A stretch of DNA of 18,923 bases from assembly GCA_024650095.1 (NCBI GenBank), contig JANKMV010000004.1, positions 1 through 18,923 on the forward strand, given 5' to 3'. The notes under the pieces are model-generated. The model saw only the letters and a program-made list of their open reading frames with translations. It was not told where the DNA came from and made no database searches. Positions 3,760 through 18,823 of the stretch are shown piece after piece; within the stretch, counting starts at the first letter, position 1; each line of letters opens with the position of its first letter. The stretch comes from Bacillota bacterium (lineage in GTDB: Bacteria > Bacillota > Dethiobacteria > Dethiobacterales > Dethiobacteraceae). The translations under genes were made by a program, and so were the position numbers.

Positions 3760-5572
3760 AAGCATTCAGTGGAAACTGGTTCTAATTTATTCTTTACTCA
3801 TTTTATTTGCCATGCAATTTTTCGCGGTCTTTCTTTCCCAGTCACTTGAGGATTATTATGTGAACACATACTCAAAAAACTTGGAATCGCAGGGATTATT
3901 GTTGGTTAACTTTCTTGAACGCTATTTTGATGATAGTGACGGCGAAGACGCAAATAATGCCATTGATGATTTAGTTCTTGAGTATTCTCGCTATGCGGGT
4001 ACCACAGATATCATGGTACTAGATGCGTTTGGTCGTGTTATCTCATCGTCGCGACAAGAAAATCAACTTCGTGGCCAGCGGATTATGCAGGAGGAAATTA
4101 CACGCGCATTGATGGGTAACAGTAGTGAAGCTATCCGCCTAGATCCAGAAACACGGGAGCGCATGAAATACTTAGCTCTTCCAGTGTTTTCGGGAGAAAG
4201 GCAGCAAGGCGTTGTCTATGTAATCGGCTCGTTAGAGCCGATATATAGTACGTTACGTGAGATACAGTTAATTTTTCTCACCGGAGCACTCATGGTGATT
4301 GGTATTACCATCCTGCTCGGTTTTTTTCTGGCGAAATCCATAACCGGACCTATTCAAGAAGTGACATCTAAGGCAGCACAAATTGCACATGGAGATTTTC
4401 GTCAACGTATTACTACTCATTCCGAGGATGAAATTGGTCGTCTTGGCGATATGTTTAATTATTTGTCTCAGCAGTTAGATGCCACTCTACAGGAGATATC
4501 CTCTGAGAAAGGAAAAGTAGAAGCCATTCTTAATCATATGACTGATGGCATTGTGGCGCTGGCACGTGATGGCCAAGTCCTACATGTAAATCCAAAAGCT
4601 CGGCGTCTCCTGGGTCTAAGCGCGGGTGAAGAATTGTCTATGGACTCTCTAACTCAGCTGGTTTCCCAAATTGACGTGGCCCAGTTGCTAAAGACAGGAC
4701 AACAGGATAGCCATGAAGTGGTTATTGCTGCTCCGCAGCAGCAAATAATTCATGCTAATTATGTGCCCTTTCATACACAAGATGTGGCGGAGCCAGACTA
4801 TTTCTCTGGGATACTGATTGTGTTACATGACGTGACGCAAGAACGGGAACTCATTCGCATTCAGCAGGAGTTTGTTGCCAATGTATCGCACGAGTTGCGT
4901 ACGCCCTTGACGACGTTGAAGAGTTATACCGAGACTTTACTTGATGGAGCCATGTTACAGCCAGATACTTGTCTTTCCTTTCTGACCACGATGGAGAAGG
5001 AAACTGAGCGCATGGTGCGTTTGGTTAGGGATCTTTTATCATTGTCCCAACTCGATTATAGGCAAGTGGGCTGGCATAAAGAGAACCACTATCTTGATGA
5101 CGTAATAAAAGAAGTGGTCAATGAGTTAAAGATAAAAAATAAAACAGATACTCGTCGTGTTACCGTTTCACTACCGGTATTCCCTGTGACCGTGTATGTT
5201 GACCGAGATAAGATTAAGCAAGTGTTACTTAACATTATGCAGAATGCGCACAAGTTTACTGAGGTAGATGGACATATTGCCATCTTACTCGACCAAACGG
5301 ACAGTGATGCAATTATCCAGGTAATAGACGACGGTATGGGTATTCCGGCTGAGGATGTTGAACGTGTGTTTGAACGATTTTATCGTGTCGACAAAACTCG
5401 TTCACGGGAGTATGGTGGTACGGGCTTAGGTCTGTCCATTGCACGAGAAATAATAGCCGCCCATGGTGGCACCATTTCTCTAGTTAGTGAGCAAGATTTT
5501 GGGACGACGGTGACAATCACTGTGCCCTTAGTGGTTTTAAAGGAGGATGGTGGAACATGCGCGAGCGCATAA
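3752..5572 (+). CDS. walK: Sensor histidine kinase WalK (YycG)
   Basis: This 606-residue membrane kinase phosphorylates WalR. Two membrane segments (about residues 9-29 and 171-193) flank an extracellular sensor region of about 140 residues. A HAMP domain (about 194-245), a PAS domain (about 255-365), the HisKA dimerisation helix with the phosphorylated histidine in VSHELRTP (H380), and a C-terminal ATPase domain follow. The ATPase domain shows the N box (NIMQNAHKF), DDGMGIP and GGTGLGLSI. This is the full WalK architecture of Bacillota. The start at 3752, within the end of walR, was chosen because translation coupling replaces the weak ribosome site; the frame stays open further upstream only inside walR. 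Its end overlaps yycH by 16 bases. Confidence 0.95.
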   Translation: MFKSIQWKLVLIYSLLILFAMQFFAVFLSQSLEDYYVNTYSKNLESQGLLLVNFLERYFDDSDGEDANNAIDDLVLEYSRYAGTTDIMVLDAFGRVISSSRQENQLRGQRIMQEEITRALMGNSSEAIRLDPETRERMKYLALPVFSGERQQGVVYVIGSLEPIYSTLREIQLIFLTGALMVIGITILLGFFLAKSITGPIQEVTSKAAQIAHGDFRQRITTHSEDEIGRLGDMFNYLSQQLDATLQEISSEKGKVEAILNHMTDGIVALARDGQVLHVNPKARRLLGLSAGEELSMDSLTQLVSQIDVAQLLKTGQQDSHEVVIAAPQQQIIHANYVPFHTQDVAEPDYFSGILIVLHDVTQERELIRIQQEFVANVSHELRTPLTTLKSYTETLLDGAMLQPDTCLSFLTTMEKETERMVRLVRDLLSLSQLDYRQVGWHKENHYLDDVIKEVVNELKIKNKTDTRRVTVSLPVFPVTVYVDRDKIKQVLLNIMQNAHKFTEVDGHIAILLDQTDSDAIIQVIDDGMGIPAEDVERVFERFYRVDKTRSREYGGTGLGLSIAREIIAAHGGTISLVSEQDFGTTVTITVPLVVLKEDGGTCASA

Positions 5573-6867
5573 AGTCAATTGTCCTTCTTATTTTGATCAT
5601 TACCAGTCTTTTTTTCACGACCTTCCTCCTCTTCGGAAAACCGTATCTGGAGACAGCAACTCCGCCGGCATATGAACAACTCACATTTGGTGAACTACGC
5701 CCGCTAGAGGAACAAATTCTGCCCACTCTACGTCTGGGTGAAGAGGATCAGTGGTTACGTCTGCAGCCCTGGCACGAGGGTTATGATGAGACGTGGGAGT
5801 GGCTATTAGTCTTGCTCCAGCTCGCGGAAGAAGCACAGCCACATGATCCTCCCGCCGCTACCAGCGGCCAACAAGTGAGAATGGCGTTTTCTGTACCGGC
5901 AGATCTCTCTTGGTGGTTACCTAGTGCTCGTATTGCGGACATGCGCATAGAGGAGGCTAGCTGGTTTGCCGAAGAACCACAAGTGCTCTGGTATCGCCAA
6001 GCAAGCGGGGAGTGGCTGCGGGCATCGTTGCGCACTCTTCCCAGTAACTGGAGTGCCCGCCTCGGGGAGCTTTTTGCCCTGGGTGAAGAAATGCATCTGG
6101 CCACACCGGCGGAGTTGGGAGAGCTGGCTGCGGCGGATGAAGGCGTTCTGCTTTCGCAGACGGTACCGGCACTAGCCGTTCATACCACAGTGGAGGAATC
6201 ACTAGAAACAGAGAAATTATTGCGGAGTATTTTTGTGAACATGGCGTTAGTGAGACGTATTGAAGAGCGTGATGGAGCCATGATTTATACAGATGGTCAA
6301 AGGGGATTGCGTCTTTTTGTCCATGGTGAACTCGAGTATACTGCGCCAGAGAATGAACCGGGTGTAAAGCAGTTGGCGCTAACAGACGCATTACGCCTAA
6401 GCGCTCAGTACCTGCAGTTGATGGGTGGATGGCCAGACGATCTGATGGTTGAAGTGGTGAATGCTACAAAACAATCCGTAAATAATGTGGCACAATGGCA
6501 CACGTATGAGATCCTATTTCGCTCTGTGCAAAAAGGGCTCCCACTCGTTGGTGCTACCCCCGCCTTACAGTTATACTTATCTGACCGCGGTGTCATATAT
6601 TATAATAGGCAAATTCGTAGGTTAGGGAATGCAACGGCGCCGGTAGCTCCCCTTGTTGCCCCACGCGTGGCCATAGCTGCGGTTGCTAGCATCTTGGGGT
6701 CACAAGCAGCAGAAGGAAAGCTTGCGATGGTGGAGCCGGTGTATTATCTGGAAAATGATGCGAGGGGACAATCATTAGCCCGTCCGGCTTGGCGAATTCA
6801 GCTACAAAATCAGGAGGTCGCCATCGTAGATGGGCACTCAGGCGAATTTATAACCTGGCTGGAGTAG
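5557..6867 (+). CDS. yycH: WalK regulatory protein YycH (WalH)
   Basis: This 436-residue protein has one N-terminal membrane anchor (about residues 5-26) and a large predicted extracytoplasmic domain. YycH and YycI in other Bacillota form a membrane complex that modulates WalK, repressing it in Bacillus subtilis and activating it in Staphylococcus aureus. Assignment rests on position directly after walK, size close to known YycH (about 450 residues), topology, and a following yycI-like gene; sequence conservation in this family is low. A near-perfect ribosome site AAAGGAGG (5539-5546) lies 10 bases before the ATG, inside the walK coding end, and the genes overlap by 16 bases. Ten bases separate it from yycI. 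Confidence 0.85.
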   Translation: MRERIKSIVLLILIITSLFFTTFLLFGKPYLETATPPAYEQLTFGELRPLEEQILPTLRLGEEDQWLRLQPWHEGYDETWEWLLVLLQLAEEAQPHDPPAATSGQQVRMAFSVPADLSWWLPSARIADMRIEEASWFAEEPQVLWYRQASGEWLRASLRTLPSNWSARLGELFALGEEMHLATPAELGELAAADEGVLLSQTVPALAVHTTVEESLETEKLLRSIFVNMALVRRIEERDGAMIYTDGQRGLRLFVHGELEYTAPENEPGVKQLALTDALRLSAQYLQLMGGWPDDLMVEVVNATKQSVNNVAQWHTYEILFRSVQKGLPLVGATPALQLYLSDRGVIYYNRQIRRLGNATAPVAPLVAPRVAIAAVASILGSQAAEGKLAMVEPVYYLENDARGQSLARPAWRIQLQNQEVAIVDGHSGEFITWLE

Positions 6868-6877
6868 GAGGTTTACT

Positions 6878-7720
6878 GTGGATCTATCAAGGGTAAAAAC
6901 AGTTTTAATTGTGGCATTCTTGGGGTTAAATATATTCTTAGGCTATAAACTTTGGCTCGTACCACAAACTCTTCGTCAGGCAAGTGTACTAACCCGTGAA
7001 CAGATGGAGCAGACAGCAGAATTACTAGCAGAGCACGGCTTTGAACTAGAAGTCCCGCTGCCGAAACAAATTCCTCGCCTAGCTCTCCTCCATGTATCAC
7101 GGCAGCAACTTGAGGATGCTAGTTGGGTGTATAACTTTTTGGGAGAGCAGGTGCCAAACGTACAGTATGCTGATGGTAAGACTGTTTATACTGTGGGAGC
7201 TGCGTCACTCGAAGTAGCGGATAACGGACATATCGTGTACAAGTCGGGGTTGCAAGGGACAGGGGGCGAAAATTCAAGAGCTCTTGCAGAGCGACAGCTT
7301 CGTGAGTGGGATTTATGGCAGCATAATATGAAGTTAGATTTGGCCGTGCCGTGGGGTCAAAATGGCTATCGCTATCGCTTTGTACAAACATATCAAAGCT
7401 TTCCTCTCTTTTTCAGTGACGTCGAAGTATTTCTTCGTGACGGGGTCTTGCAAGAACTGCATCTAAACCAAGCATCAGCCCACGGCTTTGGGGATAAAGA
7501 AGTCACTGTGATTTCGGCGCAGACGGCCATCGAAACCTTTGTCAGAGAAGCACCTGCATTAAATAAAAAAAGTATCATCGATATTTCACTTGGCTACTAC
7601 AGTTTGAATTACGACGCGGAACGTTGGGAAAGTGCTCCCGTGTGGAGAATTGCCACAGCAGATGGTACATCTTTCTATATTAATGCGTTTACGGGTGAAG
7701 CAGAAAAATCTGCTTTGTAA
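6878..7720 (+). CDS. yycI: WalK regulatory protein YycI (WalI)
   Basis: This 280-residue protein has a single N-terminal membrane segment (about residues 7-26) and an extracytoplasmic beta-rich region ending in the DGTSFYINAFTGE stretch common to YycI proteins. It partners YycH in modulating the kinase WalK. Translation begins at GTG 6878, preceded by TAGGAGGT, which overlaps the yycH stop codon, so the two are translated as a unit. The expected yycJ does not follow directly; murA and a phosphatase gene intervene. Function is by family and context, as no catalytic motif is expected. Confidence 0.85.
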   Translation: MDLSRVKTVLIVAFLGLNIFLGYKLWLVPQTLRQASVLTREQMEQTAELLAEHGFELEVPLPKQIPRLALLHVSRQQLEDASWVYNFLGEQVPNVQYADGKTVYTVGAASLEVADNGHIVYKSGLQGTGGENSRALAERQLREWDLWQHNMKLDLAVPWGQNGYRYRFVQTYQSFPLFFSDVEVFLRDGVLQELHLNQASAHGFGDKEVTVISAQTAIETFVREAPALNKKSIIDISLGYYSLNYDAERWESAPVWRIATADGTSFYINAFTGEAEKSAL

Positions 7721-7733
7721 AGTTTAGCAAAAA

Positions 7734-7762
7734 ACAGGAATTAAACATTTTTGCAAGAATGT
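7734..7762 (+). promoter_or_regulatory. Possible sigma-H-like promoter for murA
   Basis: ACAGGAATT (7734-7742) fits the sigma-H -35 consensus fully. CAAGAATGT (7754-7762), 11 bases later, keeps the core GAAT but mismatches two flanking positions. It lies in the 95-base gap between yycI and murA, about 55 bases before the murA start. It may allow murA expression apart from the wal operon. Confidence 0.4.
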
Positions 7763-7815
7763 ATAGGTAGTTATAGGCAAAAGAGAACAGGTGACTATCA
7801 GGAGGATTGTTTCAT

Positions 7816-9069
7816 ATGCCCAGACTTCATGTAACCGGCGGTAATCCGCTAGGCGGTACCGTTAAAATTAGTGGTGCAAAGAATGCAGCTGTAGCCATCA
7901 TTCCAGCCGCTCTGCTTACGGAAGCACCGGTACGAATCGAAAATTTACCAGATATCCAAGACATCCAAGCACTGGTTGAAATATTACAATATCTCGGCGT
8001 TAAGGTCGTATGGGAAACGCCTACGACACTATTTATCGACGCATCAACTCTTTCTAAATGGCAAGCACCGTATGAGCTTGTAAAAAAGCTACGCGCTTCG
8101 TACTATTTAATCGGAGCATTGTTGGGTCGCTTTGGGCGTGCTTATGTGCCGGTACCTGGTGGATGCGATCTCGGACCCCGCCCCATTGACCAACACATCA
8201 AGGGCTTTGTTGCTATGGGGGCCAACGTTGAAGTTGAGCATGGCCTGATCAAAGTAGTTGCAAACAAATTGATGGGTACGGAAATCTATCTAGATGTGGT
8301 TAGTGTTGGTGCCACTATTAACATTATGTTAGCGGCGGTCCGCGCATCAGGAAAGACTATTATAGAAAATGCTGCCAAAGAGCCTGAGATTGTGGATGTT
8401 GCCAACTTTCTCAATGCCATGGGAGCTAAAATTCGTGGTGCCGGTACTGATGTTATTAAAATTACGGGGGTACAAGAGCTAGGCTCCGCCACACACTGTG
8501 TCATTCCAGATCGGATTGAGGCCGGGACCTACATGATTGCCGCTGCTGCCACGATGGGTAATGTAGCGATACAAGGCGTGATCCCAAAACATTTAGAACC
8601 GATAACGGCTAAACTGCGTGAAATGGGCATGGCGGTGGATGTGGCAGATGATCAACTACATGTTGTCGGCACTTCCAATGCACAACCGGTCGATATTAAA
8701 ACCTTTCCTTACCCTGGCTTCCCCACTGATATGCAATCCTTGGCGATGGTCCTTTTAACGCAAGCAACAGGGAGTAGCGTCATTACAGAAAATGTTTTTG
8801 AAGGGCGTTTTAAGCATGTGGATGAATTGAAGCGGATGGGGGCAAGGATTAAAGTGGAAGGACGTACCGCCATCATTGATGGTCGTACCCGGCTGAGCGG
8901 GGCGCCTGTGAAAGCAACGGACTTGCGGGCGGGCGCAGCGTTTATTATTGCAGGTCTCATTGCAGAGGGTGAGACGGTGATTAGCGAGGTAGACCATATT
9001 TACCGTGGCTATGAAAATGTTTGCGAAAAACTAACGGCATTGGGTGCTGTGATTAAACAAATCGGGTAA
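7816..9069 (+). CDS. murA: UDP-N-acetylglucosamine 1-carboxyvinyltransferase MurA
   Basis: This 417-residue cytoplasmic enzyme transfers enolpyruvate from PEP to UDP-GlcNAc, the first committed step of peptidoglycan synthesis. The family signatures are present: SGAKNAA near the N-terminus with K22 and N23, the loop GGCDLGPRPIDQH with the catalytic cysteine C117, and the region PYPGFPTDMQ. Cysteine at the fosfomycin-attacked position predicts a fosfomycin-sensitive type, by family knowledge. The ATG at 7816 lies 10 bases after AGGAGG; a TTG at 7807 is only one base from that site and was rejected. Bacillota often carry two MurA paralogues, and which one this is cannot be told here. Its position between yycI and yycJ is unlike the Bacillus locus. 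Confidence 0.95.
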   Translation: MPRLHVTGGNPLGGTVKISGAKNAAVAIIPAALLTEAPVRIENLPDIQDIQALVEILQYLGVKVVWETPTTLFIDASTLSKWQAPYELVKKLRASYYLIGALLGRFGRAYVPVPGGCDLGPRPIDQHIKGFVAMGANVEVEHGLIKVVANKLMGTEIYLDVVSVGATINIMLAAVRASGKTIIENAAKEPEIVDVANFLNAMGAKIRGAGTDVIKITGVQELGSATHCVIPDRIEAGTYMIAAAATMGNVAIQGVIPKHLEPITAKLREMGMAVDVADDQLHVVGTSNAQPVDIKTFPYPGFPTDMQSLAMVLLTQATGSSVITENVFEGRFKHVDELKRMGARIKVEGRTAIIDGRTRLSGAPVKATDLRAGAAFIIAGLIAEGETVISEVDHIYRGYENVCEKLTALGAVIKQIG

Positions 9070-9086
9070 GGAGGACGAAGAAATAG

Positions 9087-9704
9087 ATGCGTATCCTTCT
9101 AGCTAGGCACGGACAGACGGCTGCCAATGCCGCAGGTCGTTTTCAAGGGACACTAGATTTTCCCCTGAATGCAAAGGGGCGTAAGCAGGCTCAACAGCTA
9201 GCGCCGCTACTTGCACAGTATACTCCAGGGAAGCTTTTCACCAGTAATCTCAGACGTAGTATTGAAACAGCCGCACCTACTGCCCACCTATTGGGTATAG
9301 AGCCTACGGCCTCCCCTGTCTTTAGAGAATACTCGTGGGGTATCCTAGAAGGGCTATCGCGGAGTGAAATAAAGGAACAACATCCCGTACTCTTTTCTCA
9401 ACTCGATGTAAACTTACGCGGAGCAGAGATCCCTCAACAAGAACCACTAGAACAATTCCGTGAGCGTCTTCGGCAGGGGTTAGCGCTTCTGTTGGCGGAG
9501 GATAACCCCTGCACTGTGGCATTAGTCGGTCATGGCCGTTATTTAAACGCGCTTGTAGTAGAGTTTCTTGGTTTAGATATTACTGGGCCATGGCCTTTTT
9601 CATTTGCCTCGGCCGCCGTTACACTCCTAGAGATACAGGACGATCGTCGTCGCTTGCTCCAATTCAACGAAGAATGTCACCTGAGAGGAGAACAAAATGA
9701 TTGA
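9087..9704 (+). CDS. Histidine phosphatase family protein (phosphoglycerate mutase-like)
   Basis: This 205-residue cytoplasmic protein belongs to the branch-1 histidine phosphatases. The catalytic RHG motif (R7, H8) lies in LLARHGQT. The second arginine falls in SNLRRSIETA, the acid residue is E81 in REYSWGILEG, and the second histidine is H149 in VGHGR. All core catalytic residues are present, so activity is likely. Related proteins include phosphoglycerate mutase, alpha-ribazole phosphatase and broad phosphatases; the substrate cannot be told from sequence. The ribosome site AAGGAGG is 12 bases upstream. It overlaps the start of the next gene by 8 bases, so it is co-translated with the YycJ-type hydrolase. 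Confidence 0.88.
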   Translation: MRILLARHGQTAANAAGRFQGTLDFPLNAKGRKQAQQLAPLLAQYTPGKLFTSNLRRSIETAAPTAHLLGIEPTASPVFREYSWGILEGLSRSEIKEQHPVLFSQLDVNLRGAEIPQQEPLEQFRERLRQGLALLLAEDNPCTVALVGHGRYLNALVVEFLGLDITGPWPFSFASAAVTLLEIQDDRRRLLQFNEECHLRGEQND

Positions 9705-10494
9705 AATCTGTATGCTTGCCAGTGGCTCCTCCGGTAACGCCATCTATGTAGCAACTCAACACGTTAAAATCCTCGTTGACGCAGGGCTTAGTGGTAAACG
9801 CATTGCCAGCGCACTTACGGCAATTGGCACTGAAGCCTCTGCTCTTGATGCACTTCTCCTGTCCCATGATCATAATGACCATACTTGTGGTGCAGGTATC
9901 ATGTCACGTCGTTACGGCTTGCCTGTATACGCCACGGCTCCCACCTGGCAAGTTGCAGGTAAAAAAATGGGACCTATACCTGCAGACCGTTGCCATCGAC
10001 TTCCAAGCTGTGGCACGATTACGTTTGGTGACTTAACGGTGGAGACCATCCCCATCCCCCATGACGCAGCCGATCCCGTGGGTTTTATCTTTCGCTGTGA
10101 AGAACGTGCCATTGCACTGGTAACTGACCTCGGCCATGTCACACCCTACATCCAAGAACGCCTACAAGCCATGGACTGTTTGGTGATGGAAGCCAACCAT
10201 GATGAAGAGATGTTGATAAACGGGACTTATCCCTGGCCCCTGAAAAATAGAATTCTTGGCAAAAACGGACACTTATCCAATGCAACCGTTGCCGAATGTC
10301 TTTGTAAACTCATCTCTCCACAAACCCAGCATGTGGTATTGGCACACATAAGCGAACATAATAATCTGCCACAGCTTGCCTTTGATACAGTATGTTTACG
10401 TTTAAAAGAGGCAGGCCACCTCAAACAAGGTAAACAGCTGACCGTTCGCGTTGCTGACCGTTATCTGCCTAGCTGCCACATTCAGTTGGCGTAG
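9697..10494 (+). CDS. yycJ: WalJ/YycJ metallo-beta-lactamase-fold hydrolase
   Basis: This 265-residue cytoplasmic protein has the metallo-beta-lactamase fold. The signature HDHNDH (H57, H59, D61, H62) and later ligands H122 (PHDAADP) and D144 (TDLGH) are visible, followed by MEANHDEEML. It matches the YycJ/WalJ family, proposed to be a 5'-3' exonuclease-like enzyme that links DNA replication or repair with cell division and wall metabolism. It starts at ATG 9697 after GAGGAG, overlapping the phosphatase gene by 8 bases. Linkage with walRK and htrA supports the assignment over other family members. Confidence 0.9.
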   Translation: MIEICMLASGSSGNAIYVATQHVKILVDAGLSGKRIASALTAIGTEASALDALLLSHDHNDHTCGAGIMSRRYGLPVYATAPTWQVAGKKMGPIPADRCHRLPSCGTITFGDLTVETIPIPHDAADPVGFIFRCEERAIALVTDLGHVTPYIQERLQAMDCLVMEANHDEEMLINGTYPWPLKNRILGKNGHLSNATVAECLCKLISPQTQHVVLAHISEHNNLPQLAFDTVCLRLKEAGHLKQGKQLTVRVADRYLPSCHIQLA

Positions 10495-10555
10495 TATGTT
10501 TACATAAATATGGGAAATAATGCCTATGTGGTGCATTTTTGATTTCTTCATATTA

Positions 10556-10584
10556 TTGTCACATCTTCTTGCTATATTTAGGAT
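10556..10584 (+). promoter_or_regulatory. Sigma-A-type promoter for htrA
   Basis: TTGTCA (10556-10561), a 17-base spacer, then TAGGAT (10579-10584). The -35 matches 5 of 6 and the -10 matches 4 of 6 consensus bases. It lies in the 120-base gap after yycJ, about 30 bases before the htrA start, so htrA can be transcribed on its own. Confidence 0.5.
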
Positions 10585-10614
10585 AGAAAACGGAAGAAGG
10601 GGGTCTTTGGGTCC

Positions 10615-11781
10615 ATGGATTTTTTTAATGGGTTTTACCAACAGCCCAGGAGATCGGGGTTAGTAGGGTTTTTATTCACCGCCCTGTTTGGTGCCATCGT
10701 GGGCGGCGTATTGGTTGCTTTTATTGTTTTGCGCTTTGTCATACCCGGACTAGCGCCAGTTCCTTCAGACACAAACAGTATTCCTGGCAACATGCCAGAT
10801 ATTCCATATACAGAGCGAGATTTGCCTGAATATCAGAACACGGCCATCGTCCGATCTGCTGAAAGAGTCGTGCCAGCCGTAGTGGGTATTACCAATAAAG
10901 GCATGGTATATGATATGTGGCACGGACGGTCCCTCTTGCAAGAACGGGCTACCGGTTCCGGTGTTATCATTGAGGCTAATGGCTTTATCGTCACCAATAA
11001 TCATGTTATTGAGGGCGCTGCCGAAATATGGGTCACACTAGGCGACGGAGAGGAATATCAAGCCGAACTGGTTGGTGCCGATCCCACCACAGATTTGGCC
11101 GTGATCAAAGTTAATAAAGAAGGCTTACCAGCTGCCCAGTTTGGTAACTCAGACGATATTGTTGTGGGTGAAGCGGCCATAGCTATCGGCAACCCCTTAG
11201 GACTCGATTTTTCACAAACAGTCACCGTCGGCTATATTAGTGCTAAAAAACGTGCCATTACCATTAATGAATATACGTTTAACTTTATACAAACAGATGC
11301 CGCCATTAATGATGGTAATAGCGGTGGCGCTCTCGTTAATTTAAATGGAGAAGTCGTCGGTATCAACACCGCGAAAATTAAAATTTCAGGTGTAGAAGGC
11401 ATGGGTTTTGCCATTCCCGCCAATACAGTGAAAAGTATCTCCCAAGAACTGATCACCAGTGGACGCATTAAACGACCTTGGTTGGGCGTATATTCCGGCG
11501 GCGATGTGGATGAAACACTGGCTGAACAACTCCAACTCCCAGTCAACTATGGTGTACTCGTGCAAGAGGTGCTAGCAGATAGCCCTGCAAGCCTAGCCGG
11601 TATTACCCGTGGAGATGTTATTATTAAAATGGCAGGCAAGCAAATTAAAACATTTAATGAATTACGCAACGTCATCTACGAACAGAAAATGGATACCCCC
11701 GTGGAAATTGTTGTGGTCCGCGACGGTAAGGAAGTCTCAACCACCGTCACCCTCACCGAACTACCCGAGGGGTCAGGTTAG
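10615..11781 (+). CDS. htrA: Membrane-anchored serine protease HtrA/DegP family
   Basis: This 388-residue protein degrades or refolds damaged exported proteins at the outer face of the membrane. A short cytoplasmic N-terminus and one membrane segment (about residues 20-44) precede a trypsin-like domain. The catalytic triad is visible: H130 in TNNHVIEG, D160 in DPTTDLAVIK and S236 in NDGNSGGAL. A single PDZ domain covers about 290-380. This matches the HtrA/HtrC protein encoded near yycJ in Bacillus. The ATG at 10615 follows AAGGGGG by 11 bases. It has its own promoter candidate and is followed by a long hairpin, so it may be monocistronic. Confidence 0.95.
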   Translation: MDFFNGFYQQPRRSGLVGFLFTALFGAIVGGVLVAFIVLRFVIPGLAPVPSDTNSIPGNMPDIPYTERDLPEYQNTAIVRSAERVVPAVVGITNKGMVYDMWHGRSLLQERATGSGVIIEANGFIVTNNHVIEGAAEIWVTLGDGEEYQAELVGADPTTDLAVIKVNKEGLPAAQFGNSDDIVVGEAAIAIGNPLGLDFSQTVTVGYISAKKRAITINEYTFNFIQTDAAINDGNSGGALVNLNGEVVGINTAKIKISGVEGMGFAIPANTVKSISQELITSGRIKRPWLGVYSGGDVDETLAEQLQLPVNYGVLVQEVLADSPASLAGITRGDVIIKMAGKQIKTFNELRNVIYEQKMDTPVEIVVVRDGKEVSTTVTLTELPEGSG

Positions 11782-11800
11782 AACTTTTGAAGATTCTCGC

Positions 11801-11842
11801 TAAATATAAATGACGACCTCCTCAGGTCGTCATTTATATTTA
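11801..11842 (+). terminator. 19-bp hairpin after htrA
   Basis: Arms 11801-11819 and 11824-11842 are perfectly complementary over 19 bp with loop CCTC. The 3' arm ends ATTTATATTTA, U-rich within the stem, and no separate T-run follows. It is a likely terminator or an mRNA 3' stabiliser. TAGGAGGT directly follows, with no start codon in range. Confidence 0.65.
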
Positions 11843-11910
11843 GGAGGTTAATAAAATATCACATTTTACTAGCGTGGAATCCGTGCCCCCTTTTATGCTG
11901 TAAATCATTG

Positions 11911-11919
11911 TGATATGAT
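11911..11919 (+). promoter_or_regulatory. Extended -10 promoter for the metalloenzyme gene
   Basis: TGATATGAT contains the extended motif TGN followed by TATGAT (11914-11919, 5 of 6 consensus). No good -35 is seen. The predicted start leaves a short leader with GGAG just before the ATG at 11941. Confidence 0.4.
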
Positions 11920-11940
11920 AAAGCAAAAAAGGAGTACCCT

Positions 11941-12840
11941 ATGCGTATCATCCTTTTCTTTATTGATGGAGTGGGTCTCGCGCCTGCTAGACCCACAAAT
12001 CTCCTTTCCGCAACGCCTACCCCTTGCCTACAAGAATTACTCTATGGTCATCGGTTAACGCTAGAAGCTGTGGGCACGCACAATGAACAAGCGACGCTAC
12101 TCTCCCTTGACGCAACACTGGGTGTACCCGGGGAACCGCAAAGTGCCACTGGCCAGACATCACTCTTTACCGGCGTCAATGCCGCGCAGGCCGTGGGACG
12201 CCATATCCGTGGCTTCCCCACAGAAGCGTTGAGTACTATTTTGGAGAACGAGGGTATTTTAAAAAAAATGATTCAAACGGGGAAAAAAGCAACGTTTTTA
12301 AATACGTATCGTCCCCAGTTTTTTGTGAGCCGTCCGAAAGGGCGGCGTGCGTATGCCACCACGACGTTGCTCAATATGTATGCAGGTCTTCCCTTTCACA
12401 CGCTAGACGATATGAAGGCGGGACGCTCATTGAATGCCGATATTACCAATGAGGTATTAATAGAACAGGGTTACCCCGTATCCCTCCTCGACCCCTTTAC
12501 GGCAGGGGAACGAGTGGCTACCAGGACAGAGCATTTTGACTTTTTACTTTTTGAATACTTTCTCACCGATCATTTTTCCCACAAGCGTAATCAGGAAAAG
12601 ATACAAAAGTGTATCACTACCATTGATCGTTTTATCGCGGGCATCGTAAGCAAACAAAATCTAGCTGATACCTTACTACTGGTTACCAGTGACCATGGCA
12701 ATCTAGAGGATCTAACTACGTCCGCACATACCCGTAACCCCGTACCATTACTCTTAGTTGGGGCTGGACGGGAGCATTTACCACCACTACGTACCTTAAC
12801 GGATCTAGCGCCCTTTATTCTTGAAAGACTACCACACTAG
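11941..12840 (+). CDS. Alkaline phosphatase superfamily metalloenzyme (iPGM/phosphopentomutase-like)
   Basis: This 299-residue cytoplasmic protein has the metal-site layout of the superfamily containing cofactor-independent phosphoglycerate mutase and phosphopentomutase. The visible elements are FIDGVG with D9, a nucleophile region SATGQTSLFTG (T70 or T73), DHFSH (D210, H211, H214), SDHGN (D251, H252) and AHTRNPVP (H263). It is far shorter than true iPGM (about 510 residues) because the inserted mutase domain is missing or reduced, so it is not expected to be a glycolytic mutase. The substrate is unknown. It starts at ATG 11941 after GGAG. Its stop codon overlaps the ribosome site of the next small gene, indicating an operon with the CxxH/CxxC gene and rlmH. 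Confidence 0.8.
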   Translation: MRIILFFIDGVGLAPARPTNLLSATPTPCLQELLYGHRLTLEAVGTHNEQATLLSLDATLGVPGEPQSATGQTSLFTGVNAAQAVGRHIRGFPTEALSTILENEGILKKMIQTGKKATFLNTYRPQFFVSRPKGRRAYATTTLLNMYAGLPFHTLDDMKAGRSLNADITNEVLIEQGYPVSLLDPFTAGERVATRTEHFDFLLFEYFLTDHFSHKRNQEKIQKCITTIDRFIAGIVSKQNLADTLLLVTSDHGNLEDLTTSAHTRNPVPLLLVGAGREHLPPLRTLTDLAPFILERLPH

Positions 12841-13025: not shown

Positions 13026-13505
13026 ATGCAAATTAAAATTTTAACTGTGGGTAAAATCAAGGAAAAATATCTTACTGCAGGAATCAATGAATACCGAAAA
13101 AGGCTCAGCGCCTATGCAAAAGTTGAAGTTTTGGAAGTAAAGGATGAAAAAACACCCGATCACGCTTCTGCCGCCGAGGAAGATATTGTGCGAGAAAATG
13201 AAGCAACGCGTCTGGCAGCACTTATTGCCCCCCAAACATACCTTGTTGCACTCGCCATTAAGGGGAAGTCGTTTTCGTCTCCAGAACTCGCTGCGCATAT
13301 AGCCGCACAAGCTCTCGCAGGAAAAAGCCACCTTACCTTTCTCATTGGAGGTAGTTTAGGGCTTGCACCGCGACTTATCCAACAGGCAGATTTACAGCTG
13401 TCATTCTCCTCATTAACTTTCCCTCACCAACTCTTTCGCCTTCTTTTACTAGAACAACTTTATCGAGCGTTTAAAATCAACCGTGGTGAACCCTATCATA
13501 AATGA
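13026..13505 (+). CDS. rlmH: 23S rRNA (pseudouridine-1915 N3) methyltransferase RlmH
   Basis: This 159-residue SPOUT methyltransferase modifies pseudouridine 1915 in helix 69 of 23S rRNA. The length is that of the full family. The SAM-binding knot shows as FLIGGSLGL (105-113), followed by TFPHQLFR (131-138), LLEQLYRAF, and the conserved C-terminus INRGEPYHK. The start follows AAGGAG. The gene is intact, but its terminal bases 13485-13505 are repeated at 14655-14675 with a foreign-looking gene in between. In staphylococci the same 3' end, coding for Y-H-K-stop, is the integration site of SCC elements. The last codons here may therefore be element-derived sequence restoring the reading frame. 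Confidence 0.96.
   Translation: MQIKILTVGKIKEKYLTAGINEYRKRLSAYAKVEVLEVKDEKTPDHASAAEEDIVRENEATRLAALIAPQTYLVALAIKGKSFSSPELAAHIAAQALAGKSHLTFLIGGSLGLAPRLIQQADLQLSFSSLTFPHQLFRLLLLEQLYRAFKINRGEPYHK
13485..13505 (+). repeat. Direct repeat copy 1 at the rlmH 3' end (candidate attL)
   Basis: These 21 bases code for G-E-P-Y-H-K-stop of rlmH and match 14655-14675 at 18 of 21 positions. The last 12 bases, TATCATAAATGA, are those recalled for the staphylococcal SCC attachment site in rlmH. Confidence 0.7.
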
Positions 13506-13636
13506 CTGCGGTTCTCCTATAACCTAGTAATATTATAGTTACAGGGAATATTTATCTTATATACTTAGAACTAATGTAAAAACAGTAAAAATAAGTTATG
13601 TAGAATCTAGAATAATGCTAAATGGGTGGCTCAATT

Positions 13637-14605
13637 ATGATAAACACAAAATTAATTTTAATTGACGGAATAACAGGCTCAGGTAAATCGACTACAGCTC
13701 AATTTTTAGCAAATCAGTCAAAAATGAATGGGGCTAATGTTAAGTGGTACCATGAGGAAGAAACTAACCATCCTTTAGGGTATGAAGAAGATGTGGAAGT
13801 TTTTGCTTCACAGGTCGAGATAGAGAAATTTTTAGGAACAATTCCAAAACTATGGCAACAATTTGTTAAACAAGTAAGACAATCTGATGAAGTACATATT
13901 ATTGAAAGTCATCTTTTACAGGATACTGTTAGGGTTCTTTTTCAGAACAATATTGAAGAAGCAAGAATTATAGATTTTGTGCAGGAAATTGAAGACATAA
14001 TCAAACCGCTAAATCCAGCTCTACTTTATTTTCATCAACAGGATGCCAATCGTTCTATTCGGAAAGTTTGGCAACGTAGGGGTGATGCTTGGAAAAAGTG
14101 GTTTATTGATTCAGATATTCAAACACCTTATGTTAAAGCAAGTGGTTTAACAGGAGAGATAGGAGTTATAAAACTCTGGTCGGATTATCAGAATTTTACC
14201 AATCAACTCTTTGAGAGGTATCAATTTAAGAAATTATCTATTGAAAACTCTGCAGGTGAATGGGATGATTATCACAAAAGAATTTTAGATTTTTTAAACC
14301 TAAATTTAGTTGTTGAAAATAGAGGCTTAACATTAGATGAAAAAAAAAGATATTGCGGAACTTACAAAGAGCAAGAAGGAAAGCTAGGATGTACATTAAA
14401 ACTTCTTAATGGCAATTTGGTTTGTGACTTAATCTGGCCTGATATTAGAATTTTACCTGTGGAGACTGGAAATATGAACCATTTCTATTTGGAATCGTTT
14501 CCTGTTTTCATTAAATTTAAAGAAAATGAAGAAGGTTGCATTAAAGAGTTAAACTTAAGTGGTGGGAGAAAGAGATTGGAAGATAAAAAAATGTATAAAG
14601 TCTAA
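13637..14605 (+). CDS. P-loop kinase-like protein with C-terminal beta-rich domain
   Basis: This 322-residue cytoplasmic protein begins with a Walker A motif, GITGSGKST at residues 11-19, directly after the first strand, as in nucleoside/nucleotide kinase-like P-loop proteins. A candidate second strand reads VHIIES (about 86-91), and a basic stretch with RSIRKVWQRR (about 139-148) could be a lid. The region from about 236 to the end contains YCGTYKEQEGKLGCTLKLL and looks like a small beta-barrel, similar in pattern to the C-terminal domain attached to some S12 serine hydrolases; that likeness is tentative. The substrate is unknown. ATG 13637 was chosen with GGGTGG 7 bases upstream; ATG 13622 is possible. 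The AT-rich codons (AAA, TTA, ATT) differ from neighbours, suggesting transfer. Confidence 0.75.
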   Translation: MINTKLILIDGITGSGKSTTAQFLANQSKMNGANVKWYHEEETNHPLGYEEDVEVFASQVEIEKFLGTIPKLWQQFVKQVRQSDEVHIIESHLLQDTVRVLFQNNIEEARIIDFVQEIEDIIKPLNPALLYFHQQDANRSIRKVWQRRGDAWKKWFIDSDIQTPYVKASGLTGEIGVIKLWSDYQNFTNQLFERYQFKKLSIENSAGEWDDYHKRILDFLNLNLVVENRGLTLDEKKRYCGTYKEQEGKLGCTLKLLNGNLVCDLIWPDIRILPVETGNMNHFYLESFPVFIKFKENEEGCIKELNLSGGRKRLEDKKMYKV

Positions 14606-14638
14606 AAGATGAATACATTTAGGAGGAGTCTAAAAAAC

Positions 14639-14675
14639 CGCATTACAACGATATGGTGAACCATACCATAAATAA
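14639..14675 (+). pseudogene. Remnant of the rlmH 3' end (candidate attR)
   Basis: Bases 14655-14675 read GGT GAA CCA TAC CAT AAA TAA, i.e. G-E-P-Y-H-K-stop, identical in protein to the end of intact rlmH. CGCATT at 14639-14644 could be a trace of the R-I codons seen in many RlmH C-termini, shifted by a few extra bases. No upstream coding sequence remains, so it is a fragment. The differing third positions show it is not a recent simple copy of the intact end. Confidence 0.65.
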
Positions 14676-14708
14676 AAATGTGACAAGGGAAAGCTCCTTG
14701 TCACATTT
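14676..14708. terminator. Bidirectional terminator between convergent genes
   Basis: A 13-bp perfect stem (14676-14688 with 14696-14708, arm AAATGTGACAAGG) with a 7-base loop. The minus-strand transcript has the better U-tract (TTTTTATTT). It ends the minus-strand gene at 14724 and probably once ended rlmH. Confidence 0.85.
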
Positions 14709-14723
14709 AGTACGTGCTAAATG

Positions 14724-15122
14724 CTAGGAAAAAACTGGACCCTCCAGGATGATTTCGCCACTATTTTCCGTCCCCAATTGAGGTCTCACGGATACATTAA
14801 TATTGGGCAATGTTCCACCGAAACGCAAAAGAACTGATCCTACCCAGTTTTGTTGATCCTCTGTTGGCACTAAATATATTGTCGCTAATGGTTGTAATGA
14901 CTCTGGAACCTTGAGCGTGGCCACATAACTGTCGTATGGTCCGAACGTATCTGGATCCGGCAGATTAATACCTAAAATTGTAACCCGCTGTACTGGTGGG
15001 GTAAAGATTGTTATTTCAAAGACCGACGCTCCTGCGATAAAAAGTTGTTCCGCAGGTCCTGTGGGAAGCAAGGGGTTCGTGACAATAAATTCTTCCTGAT
15101 TGCCATTTACATTACTATTCAT
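14724..15122 (-). CDS. Hypothetical protein, predicted beta-rich, no family recognised
   Basis: This 132-residue protein has no cysteine, no signal peptide and no membrane segment. Its many valine, isoleucine, proline and glycine residues in short alternating hydrophobic stretches suggest a beta-sandwich. The N-terminus MNSNVNGNQEE is polar and probably flexible. GGAGGTG is about 5 bases upstream of the ATG on the minus strand, and a terminator follows the stop, so it is a well-formed gene. It is the last of three minus-strand genes, after two DUF2382 stress proteins, with 95 bases between it and the second. A structural or spore-surface role would be a guess. Confidence 0.7.
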   Translation of the reverse strand: MNSNVNGNQEEFIVTNPLLPTGPAEQLFIAGASVFEITIFTPPVQRVTILGINLPDPDTFGPYDSYVATLKVPESLQPLATIYLVPTEDQQNWVGSVLLRFGGTLPNINVSVRPQLGTENSGEIILEGPVFS

Positions 15123-15217: not shown

Positions 15218-15856
15218 TTACCAGTGATGGTGCATTTTTTTTGCACGGCTGCTTGATGTGGCAGTGTTATCCTTATCATGGACGATAGCCTCGCCAGCAA
15301 CATCTACATTTGCCTCTTCCCGTTTTACTGTTTCACTTACATGAATTGTTTCCTTTACTTGATCTTTAAAGATGGAGACATCATTTAATTCAACCGGATG
15401 CGTGGAAATATCGACTTTCTCTTCGCGGATGGGTATGCGGATGGTTTCAGTGGCAGCTACATCATTTTGGTTAGCATTACTTTCATCGTTGATTTGAATA
15501 ACAAGCTCCTCACGTTGTAGCGGAACAGAGATCACCTTATCTTCACTGATGATTTCTTTGTGTATCTGTACAGTCGCTGTATTGACACGATTTTTAATAA
15601 TCTCCAGTTCCTCTTTGCGGAGGAGGAGCGATGCATCTTGATTTGTGTCAGTATGATCATAAACTGGGACGTCTGCACTTGCTTTTCGCCGCTGTGCCAC
15701 CATGCCAACGATTCCACCCCCCACGAGAAAAGCCAGTAGTGACATTTCAGTGGATGGCGTTGCTACAATGAGTACATATAGTGCTGTGCCAATGATCCCG
15801 CCAAGGAGCGTAGCAGTAATAATGATGGGATAATTGATGATCTTCTTTGTTTTCAT
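15218..15856 (-). CDS. Membrane-anchored DUF2382 (YsnF-like) stress protein
   Basis: This 212-residue protein has two predicted membrane segments close together (about residues 9-30 and 38-56) and a charged soluble region carrying DUF2382. Two repeats are visible: LLLRKEELEI...VQIHKEI (about residues 77-102) and ETIRIPIREEKVDI...ETIHVSETVKREEA (about 136-180). DUF2382 occurs in YsnF of Bacillus subtilis and in stress-related proteins; the biochemical role is unknown. The start was moved to ATG 15856 (minus strand) because GGAGG lies 5 bases upstream; an ATG four codons earlier overlaps that site. The protein ends in a histidine-rich tail, MHHHW. It is a paralogue of the neighbouring gene at 15929-16384. 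Confidence 0.8.
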   Translation of the reverse strand: MKTKKIINYPIIITATLLGGIIGTALYVLIVATPSTEMSLLAFLVGGGIVGMVAQRRKASADVPVYDHTDTNQDASLLLRKEELEIIKNRVNTATVQIHKEIISEDKVISVPLQREELVIQINDESNANQNDVAATETIRIPIREEKVDISTHPVELNDVSIFKDQVKETIHVSETVKREEANVDVAGEAIVHDKDNTATSSSRAKKMHHHW

Positions 15857-15879
15857 CTTTACCTCCATTTATGTACTTG

Positions 15880-15914
15880 AAAAAAACACCCTACAATCGT
15901 TACACGATTGTAGG
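15880..15914 (-). terminator. Rho-independent terminator between the DUF2382 genes
   Basis: On the minus strand an 11-bp stem (arms 15904-15914 and 15890-15900, CCTACAATCGT and its complement) with a 3-base loop is followed, after 3 bases, by seven T residues. It lies just after the upstream DUF2382 gene and before the second, limiting readthrough. Confidence 0.75.
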
Positions 15915-15928
15915 TGTCAATCTTTAGA

Positions 15929-16384
15929 TTATTTTTTGTCGCGTTCTTTTGCAATAATTCTCTTGCGATCACCGTCAACGTCTATACGCGCTTCCTCTCT
16001 TTTTACCAGCTCATCGAAATGCTTAGTTTCTTCCACTTCACGCTTGTGAGCAGAAATCTCACCTATTATCTCAGTATGTTTACCTATCTCAACCCGCTCT
16101 TCACTGACAGGGATGTGTATTGTTTCTTCTTCCCCAATAGGTGAGTTGCTTTGTTGATGGTCTAATGCGCGTCGCTCTATGACCACTTCTTCATGAGTTA
16201 CAGGAACATCTACAGACGTATGCTCTTCAATAATATCTTTGTGCAGAGTTACTTCACCTGTGCGGATTCGATCCTTGGCCACATCTAACTCTTCTTCCCG
16301 TAATAAAAGGTTCTCGTCTCTCGCCATTTCTGTGTCAGCGGTTTCGTCATCACTAAAGAGACCAAAGAAATTTTTCTTTTTCAT
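15929..16384 (-). CDS. Soluble DUF2382 (YsnF-like) stress protein
   Basis: This 151-residue, highly charged protein lacks a membrane segment and carries the same two conserved blocks as its neighbour: LLLREEELDVAKDRI...VTLHKDI (about residues 26-50) and ETIHIPVSEERVEI...ELVKREEARIDV (about 86-137). It is the DUF2382 type seen in general stress proteins such as YsnF, of unknown biochemical role. The ribosome site AAGGAGG precedes the ATG on the minus strand. The upstream 205-base gap is shared with the divergent DUF1801 gene and must hold both promoters. The pair looks like an old tandem duplication, in which one copy is membrane-anchored. Confidence 0.82.
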   Translation of the reverse strand: MKKKNFFGLFSDDETADTEMARDENLLLREEELDVAKDRIRTGEVTLHKDIIEEHTSVDVPVTHEEVVIERRALDHQQSNSPIGEEETIHIPVSEERVEIGKHTEIIGEISAHKREVEETKHFDELVKREEARIDVDGDRKRIIAKERDKK

Positions 16385-18305: not shown

Positions 18306-18379
18306 CCCGTCTATCGAACTATATCTAGCCCTTTTGAATACGATGGTTATGAAACTTTCGTAGGAAGGAGGGTTGTGTG

Positions 18380-18823
18380 ATGATGCAGTTTTTTGCAACA
18401 TTACGAGGATCAGAGGAAGTTCCCCCGGTGTCAACTAATGCATCGGGTACCACTACGTTTAAGGTAAGTGAAGACCAGCGGATGATGCATTATCAATTGA
18501 CGGTCAACAATCTTGCCAATTTAACTGAGGCTCATATCCATCTAGGACGTCGCGGCGAAAATGGGCCCGTTGTTGTCTTCTTATTTGGCCCTGTAGATCG
18601 AGGAATCACAGTGAGCCAAGGCATTGTGCGCGGCACAGTGAGTCAGAGAGATCTAGTAGGTCCTTTGGCAGGACAGCCATTTTCTGACCTGCTTGCTCAG
18701 ATGCAGGCGGGTACCACCTACGTCAATGTCCACACGAAGCGGCATCCAGCAGGTGAAATCCGGGGGCAAATAAGCCATAGCAAAAAAGTAATGGCACGGC
18801 CTACAGAAGATCAAGAGCTGTAA
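18380..18823 (+). CDS. CHRD domain protein
   Basis: This 147-residue protein is almost entirely one CHRD domain, named after chordin. Key signs are LRGSEEVPPVSTNASG at the start, TEAHIHLGRRGENGPVVVFL in the middle, and VHTKRHPAGEIRGQI at the end, with histidines in AHIH and VHTKRH that may bind metal. The family's function is unknown in bacteria. Most CHRD proteins are exported, yet no signal peptide or anchor is present, so this one should be cytoplasmic or reach the surface by another route. AAGGAGGG precedes ATG 18380 by 7 bases; GTG 18377 and ATG 18383 are near alternatives. It sits 74 bases after the Crp/Fnr gene with no terminator between, so co-transcription is possible. Confidence 0.88.
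   Translation: MMQFFATLRGSEEVPPVSTNASGTTTFKVSEDQRMMHYQLTVNNLANLTEAHIHLGRRGENGPVVVFLFGPVDRGITVSQGIVRGTVSQRDLVGPLAGQPFSDLLAQMQAGTTYVNVHTKRHPAGEIRGQISHSKKVMARPTEDQEL

Follow-up and report, generated by a model that had tools for sequence, protein, structure and literature searches.

A probable one-gene, recombinase-less cassette at an SCC-type site in the rlmH 3' end of a Dethiobacteraceae genome

The rlmH locus and its duplicated tail

In staphylococci, the cassettes that confer methicillin resistance (staphylococcal cassette chromosome [SCC] elements) dock at the 3' end of the housekeeping gene rlmH. We analyzed a stretch of 18,923 nucleotides from a member of the Dethiobacteraceae (contig JANKMV010000004.1 of assembly GCA_024650095.1), referred to here as the window, in which the end of rlmH is present twice. 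The features of the locus are as follows.

13026..13505, + strand: rlmH, encoding a SPOUT methyltransferase of 159 aa (Pfam SPOUT_MTase, 187 bits); its 3' end is the putative attachment site
13485..13505, + strand: left direct repeat (attL core), the final 21 bases of rlmH, with the putative crossover dinucleotide GA at 13488-13489
13507..13513, + strand: left terminal inverted-repeat arm TGCGGTT, cassette side, assigned from the sequence and from a pairing test over 27 intervals
13622..14605, + strand: cargo gene, encoding a P-loop kinase-like protein of 327 aa (alternative start at 13637)
14636..14642, + strand: right terminal inverted-repeat arm AACCGCA, cassette side, assigned from the sequence
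14652..14665, + strand: inner dyad TATGGT-GA-ACCATA of the right repeat, assigned from the sequence, with 7 of 8 inner positions pairing
14655..14675, + strand: right direct repeat (attR core), taken to be the original end of rlmH, encoding GEPYHK-stop
14676..14708, no strand assigned: stem-loop of 13 pairs, starting at the base next to the second stop and shared with the convergent gene
14724..15122, - strand: convergent gene of 132 aa, outside the cassette, with no Pfam match

rlmH ends in GGTGAACCCTATCATAAATGA at 13485-13505, and the second copy, at 14655-14675, reads GGTGAACCATACCATAAATAA. As the first-pass annotation had claimed, 18 of the 21 bases are identical and both copies encode GEPYHK-stop, the only differences being two synonymous positions and the stop codon. 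The ungapped repeat comprises 13484-13503 and 14654-14673 (18/20 identical), and the identity of the two copies stops at the repeat edge on both sides. None of 200 dinucleotide shuffles of the window contained a match to the 21-base repeat at three or fewer mismatches. The genome is a draft of 2,658,718 bases in 556 contigs (93% complete), and a search of it for further copies, which the annotation had proposed, returned only these two sites for a degenerate 19-base form of the repeat (two or fewer mismatches; reversed control, 0). The shuffle test and the restriction to two sites across the assembly rule out a chance repeat. The arrangement is that of an SCC-type insertion at the rlmH 3' end, flanked by direct repeats.

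A single open reading frame of at least 70 aa, that of the 327-aa protein, lies wholly between the repeats, in the same direction as rlmH. The GC content of the interval is 0.32 compared to 0.43 in the flanks, and the GC3 of the gene is 0.24 compared to 0.34 to 0.45 in 13 neighboring genes, in agreement with the earlier description of one AT-rich gene unlike its neighbors. The TGCGGTT and AACCGCA arms pair with a score of 7, giving the interval the terminal inverted repeats of SCC elements. The right copy has a perfect dyad of 6 bp around its GA center, and the last copy carries no right arm, a regularity that we call the right-arm rule. In its sequence, the window repeat is thus built like an SCC attachment site, with its position at the rlmH 3' end, its GA center, and terminal inverted repeats. 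We read the interval as a pseudo-SCC-like unit, with apparent SCC-type ends and site and with cargo, but without ccr.

The stem-loop directly behind the second copy confirms part of a further claim, that a strong terminator shared with the convergent gene stands there; however, its terminator-like score was restricted to the minus strand, the strand of the convergent gene. This 132-aa gene had no tblastn match in the stretches behind rlmH of 13 relatives. Farther from the cassette, two adjacent DUF2382 genes occupy 15218-16384 on the minus strand. An Rfam scan of the window gave no hit at the gathering cutoffs.

The cargo protein scored 27.4 bits against Pfam AAA_18 and 143 bits against PRK06761, below the respective cutoffs of 29.4 and 270, and a profile of its family had weak matches in the PDB to thymidylate kinases and seryl-tRNA(Sec) kinases. 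Residues G16, G19, G21, K22, and S23 of the P-loop kinase-like half are invariant in 36 aligned sequences. The C-terminal part beyond about residue 230 matched no Pfam or NCBIfam family, and a PADLOC scan of the cargo returned no family. The viral, phage, and plasmid collections contained no close relative (viral, 0; phages, 0; plasmids, 1 at 29% identity). By analogy with the company that such cassettes keep, our guess is that the gene is perhaps a kinase-like resistance or defense gene.

rlmH loci of related genomes

RlmH is 63 to 77% identical in 16 genomes of the same family; one other genome (G018) yielded fragments only, and another (G002) yielded no match to rlmH. The P-loop gene was found in 1 of 19 family genomes, that of the window, and in none of the 18 others. 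The annotation had named its presence at the same place in all close relatives, with vertical phylogeny, as an argument against an insertion, and this is not the situation in the family.

Stretches of 0.6 to 11 kb on the 3' side of rlmH were compared in 13 relatives, and a single repeat was present in 12 of them (three or fewer mismatches). In the thirteenth, G010, a second repeat, GGCTAACCGTATCATAAGTAA, lies 6.5 kb away, after the restriction system genes hsdM, hsdS, and hsdR. Its center is TA, not GA, and it is therefore perhaps no longer functional. When the final 21 bases of rlmH in the 13 relatives were compared with the two copies of the window, five were closer to the right copy, four were closer to the left copy, and four were tied; with this split they do not tell which copy is the original. 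Seven window genes beyond the cassette were also compared, six of which had no match in the stretches behind the relatives' rlmH. The seventh, a CHRD-like gene (18377-18823), had partial matches behind rlmH in G013 and G017; these lie 0.05 to 0.4 kb past the rlmH end, and the window gene lies about 4.9 kb away from it. The proposed comparison of relatives gave single-repeat sites and, in G010, other cargo, but no strict empty-site ortholog, since the relatives' rlmH is not followed, in the stretches compared, by the genes that lie just past the cassette in the window.

The same cassette in distant genomes

One genome each of 84,980 species was searched for the cargo gene with six short peptide patterns, which have only close relatives within reach. 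The gene was found at four loci (L033 to L036) with 71 to 81% identity. The Sporosalibacterium faouarense copy (L035) belongs to a tandem array that follows rlmH and in which four repeats delimit three one-gene cassettes, carrying an acetyltransferase-like gene (259 aa), the P-loop gene, and a RimI-like gene (197 aa). Positions 13485-14590 of the window and 9866-10966 of the Sporosalibacterium stretch share 81% DNA identity over 1,107 bp, beginning exactly at the repeat, and positions 14633-14675 match the last repeat of the array at 91% over 44 bp (E = 5e-11). The RlmH proteins of the two genomes are only 52% identical. Vertical descent would not be expected to give this combination of 81% DNA identity for the gene with 52% identity for RlmH. 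Sporosalibacterium is placed in another class on the basis that G465, from its class list, shares contig positions with G385, from the list of genomes sharing the phylum only. Among 291 genomes of that class, a close copy (77%) was present in one, that of L035 itself, and seven others had matches at 24 to 48% identity. At L034 the gene is located between two repeats, on a contig with no rlmH match. The genes at L033 and L036 are not accompanied by such repeats, and these two loci were left out of the cassette counts.

Survey of rlmH-tail repeats

The rlmH-tail pattern occurred in 96 of 398 genomes of the phylum, with no reversed control among the matches listed. Two or more exact copies on one strand within 12 kb were present in 15 of the 398 genomes. 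All 15 loci were read, and the first copy was the rlmH end in 14 of them (14/398), the exception being G250. The dyad-type repeat was present in 21 of 391 genomes of the class of L035 (reversed control, 0), a set that includes the genome of L035 and apparently also G385 of the first set. The loci were mostly selected for carrying two repeats or a single additional one, and the counts below are therefore not a random sample.

Sixteen of the 27 intervals between neighboring repeats, from all loci fetched, were shorter than 2 kb. Dyads, sizes, and orientations were analyzed for 64 repeats (one or no mismatch) in 38 loci, and the pairing of inverted ends was analyzed in 40 loci. The longest open reading frame ran in the rlmH direction in 15 of the 16 short intervals (P = 5e-4, an optimistic value because related genomes are not independent). 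The inner dyad was stronger in copies outside rlmH, with a mean of 5.56 of 8 positions (n = 41) compared to 3.22 in rlmH copies (n = 23; P = 3e-7, again optimistic because rlmH copies are constrained by coding and the genomes are related). Inverted ends paired better within an interval than when permuted (mean of 6.37 versus 5.19; standard deviation, 0.29; 0 of 1,000 permutations), with 13 of the 27 intervals scoring only 3 to 5, no better than the permuted mean. The right-arm rule was broken, as judged by eye, in 9 of 20 arrays (L035, L086, L087, L089, L091, L092, L094, L098, and L132), in which further cassettes or a chromosomal-side arm may follow. Duplication of the coding tail alone is ruled out by the arrays that carry different cargo. 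In G147 (L095, reversed 4523-12099), two rlmH copies lie 7.1 kb apart with repeats at both ends, and the upstream copy matches as two overlapping pieces.

PADLOC was applied to 10 hand-picked proteins out of 76 cargo open reading frames. It identified Thoeris (ThsA, 624 bits; ThsB, 208 bits) in a 3.2-kb cassette of G173, Hachiman (HamA, 50 bits; HamB, 385 bits) in a 4.6-kb cassette of G080, AbiD (89 bits) in a 1.5-kb cassette of G132, AbiU (416 bits) in a 1.8-kb cassette of G226, and HEC-06 (580 bits) in a 6.5-kb interval of G084. Pfam matches in other cassettes included a Phd antitoxin, two Fic proteins, a nitroreductase, an ATP-grasp protein, a GNAT protein, and a helix-turn-helix (HTH) protein; one cassette protein of 192 aa had no Pfam match. 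In G173, a two-contig genome with no PF07508 match, the Thoeris-like pair and a third gene lie between rlmH-tail repeats (L090, reversed 4981-8226). In G080, the Hachiman-like cassette is followed by a second interval with an operon resembling an ABC transporter (L091, reversed 4702-9338). A recombinase-less cassette in G744 (L213 and L214, 26377-29064) holds a BlaI-like regulator and an M56/BlaR1-like gene of 749 aa and stands behind a Ccr-type element. For the G744 and G080 cargo, the designations BlaI/M56, methyltransferase, ATPase, and ABC transporter come from inspection by eye.

Recombinases at the repeats

The statement in the first-pass annotation that no Ccr recombinase is present was upheld for the interval, with its one open reading frame, and for the draft assembly, in which no protein matched PF00239, PF07508, or a Ccr-like query. 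Unlike a full SCC element, the interval thus has no ccr gene of its own. The wider recombinase search that the annotation had called for gave no serine recombinase in the assembly but did give tyrosine-recombinase-type matches. Matches of the latter type were present in all 21 genomes tested, that of the window included, and in all 14 control genomes as well. None of the 21 passed the integron-integrase cutoff (TIGR02249), the best E value in the window's genome being 3.6e-17.

The 76 cargo open reading frames (at least 70 aa) gave no match at an E value of 1e-3 to a set of large serine recombinases; the recombinase-bearing intervals of G071 and G744 are outside these 76 frames and the 27 intervals. 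In five genomes (G071, G419, G744, G385, and G244), large serine recombinase genes overlap the repeat by their 3' ends. The best NCBIfam family was CcrB for G071 (315 bits), G419 (384 bits), G744 (283 bits, over a 514-aa stretch), and G385 (81 bits, for a C-terminal piece), while the G244 recombinase scored 77 bits with XisF and 50 with CcrB. We refer to these enzymes as Ccr-type and not as CcrB, because all score far under the staphylococcal NCBIfam cutoffs (900 and 700). The gene of G244 (L150, 13-1554) itself ends in GEPYHK-stop, its frame closing within the attachment repeat.

The order in G744 is an rlmH repeat, 13.7 kb ending in the Ccr-type gene, a repeat, a recombinase-less cassette of 3.5 kb, and a repeat. 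Such an order would be expected of an autonomous element that carries a passenger, and it is the one observation that points to mobilization of ccr-less cassettes by Ccr in trans. Most serine recombinase genes of the 96 repeat-bearing genomes lie away from any repeat. Cassettes are also present in three genomes that lack a PF07508 match, namely, the window's genome, G173, and G423. A distant match to the G419 recombinase was present in 9 of the 19 family genomes (best, 155 bits in G004), the window's genome having none.

Comparison with known elements

Integron cassettes consist of one gene and one recombination site and form arrays with a bias in gene orientation. The rlmH cassettes described here share the one-gene, one-site organization, the arrays, and the bias (15/16). 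They differ from integron cassettes in that none of the 21 genomes has an integron integrase over the cutoff, the site is the rlmH tail (although the repeat folds), and the recombinase genes at the site encode serine enzymes.

That staphylococcal cassettes use the rlmH 3' end as their attachment site, as the annotation had stated, agrees with PMC10581047, PMC3637587, and PMC2984492. According to these papers, SCC and pseudo-SCC elements resemble the window in having the rlmH 3' end as their site, direct repeats made of that end, inverted repeats at their termini, and a GA center; tandem or composite elements and elements without ccr are further points of likeness. CcrAB is reported to need 60 to 70 bp and a central GA (PMC10581047). 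The window unit has one gene in 1.17 kb, whereas the pseudo-SCC element in PMC10581047 is 26.6 kb; in contrast to SCC, its host belongs to the Dethiobacteraceae, with no ccr match anywhere in the draft assembly. Enterococcus cassette chromosome (ECC) elements, like the window unit, are inserted in rlmH, and PMC6222049 describes repeats of about 50 bp, inverted repeats in attR and in the circle sites, and a TATCATAA motif with an essential C. In the window, the left copy has TATCATAA and the right copy has TACCATAA, with the C kept. In contrast, ECC has ccrAB and was 32 kb in the transfer experiment (PMC6222049), and the window unit has neither. SCC-like islands with PolA-SSB primases in other Bacillota are, according to PMC10061031, mostly located 3' of rlmH with the second end marked by about 12 bp of rlmH, some being tandem composites, with conflict genes as cargo. 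They encode a helicase, a primase, and at least one recombinase, whereas the window unit encodes none of these.

Larger SCC-like islands that target rlmH have already been described outside staphylococci, tandem composites among them (PMC10061031, PMC6222049, and PMC10581047), as have pseudo-SCC elements lacking ccr (PMC10581047 and PMC3637587). We found no report in the open-licence literature of one-gene, integron-like rlmH cassettes in clostridia or Dethiobacteria. The window cassette would work like a pseudo-SCC element and is organized like an integron cassette, and it is a full member of neither class.

Proposed mechanism and alternatives

We consider it likely that 13488-14657 is a recombinase-less cassette of 1,170 bp in the rlmH 3' end, at an SCC-type site, moved by a Ccr-family enzyme in trans. 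The Ccr-family large serine recombinase would come from a larger element, resident in this host or in an earlier one. The circular form of the cassette would consist of the gene and one dyad site of about 48 bp and would recombine with an rlmH tail, crossing over at the GA of GGTGAACC. Closure of the circle at GA would bring the two arms to either side of the core, in a site of about 48 bp, and an empty site would hold neither arm. The cassette would supply its own PYHK-stop, displacing the original tail to 14655-14675, and rlmH would be kept whole because the cassette brings these codons. A crossover at GA, with the last rlmH codons supplied by the cassette, would also explain why the copies still encode PYHK-stop. 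We infer that a recombinase acting in trans would excise the cassette as a circle through this candidate crossover point, and that the cassette may be mobile at present. The annotation had offered a decayed element, a minimal one mobilized in trans, or a new class using the same site; minimal and mobilized in trans fits best, and decay is less probable, given that 16 of the 27 intervals span less than 2 kb.

A decayed remnant, in which a larger SCC-like island had its own recombinase deleted and one gene was left between the repeats, is unlikely in our judgment. The pseudo-SCC elements without ccr known from PMC10581047 and PMC3637587 would be precedents, and the assembly has no serine recombinase match. 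However, the distant Sporosalibacterium genome has this one-gene unit too, with the left end in common, small size is common and does not in itself signal decay, and no second open reading frame of at least 70 aa remains wholly between the repeats. Less probable still is movement by a tyrosine recombinase or by an integron-like route through a folded single strand, with the dyad acting as a hairpin substrate and not as a double-stranded serine recombinase site. The one-gene cassettes with their common orientation and foldable repeat do resemble integron cassettes, every genome tested has tyrosine-recombinase-type matches, and three genomes (G000, which is that of the window, G173, and G423) hold cassettes with no PF07508 match. 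Yet the controls have such matches too, none of the 21 genomes reaches the integrase cutoff, Ccr-type genes sit on the repeat itself, and the GA center is a published Ccr requirement (PMC10581047). Very improbable is an origin without site-specific recombination, by tail duplication with illegitimate or homologous insertion or by a transposon with a long target duplication: the two rlmH copies of G147 and a second partial rlmH end in G131 indicate that duplication of the region happens, but the interval has no transposase, the differences between the copies are confined to two synonymous positions and the stop codon, unrelated genomes also have such arrays, with different cargo, and the inverted ends lie inside the direct repeats.

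Beyond the single locus, the case is evenly balanced for a general system in which, in clostridial and Dethiobacteria-like lineages, the rlmH tail would be the dock of an integron-like serine recombinase system. Small, oriented, mostly one-gene cassettes (phage defense, toxin-antitoxin-like, acetyltransferase, and kinase-like) would stand there in tandem and be exchanged between classes by Ccr-type enzymes that autonomous elements inserted there would provide in trans. If the trans-mobilized cassette reading is correct, the SCC principle known from the spread of methicillin resistance would reach single genes and other Firmicutes lineages, and the movement of recombinase-free genes between classes would be explained. 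A repeated rlmH tail would then be a simple sequence rule for mobile defense or resistance genes beside a widely conserved gene, and ideas about the place of assembly of SCC cargo would become testable.

In G385, exact repeats occur on six contigs (L132 to L137), and rlmH lies in the stretch read only at L136. Several of these repeats have AAAACCTCATTT/AAATGAGGTTTT arms and are possible dispersed cassette sites.
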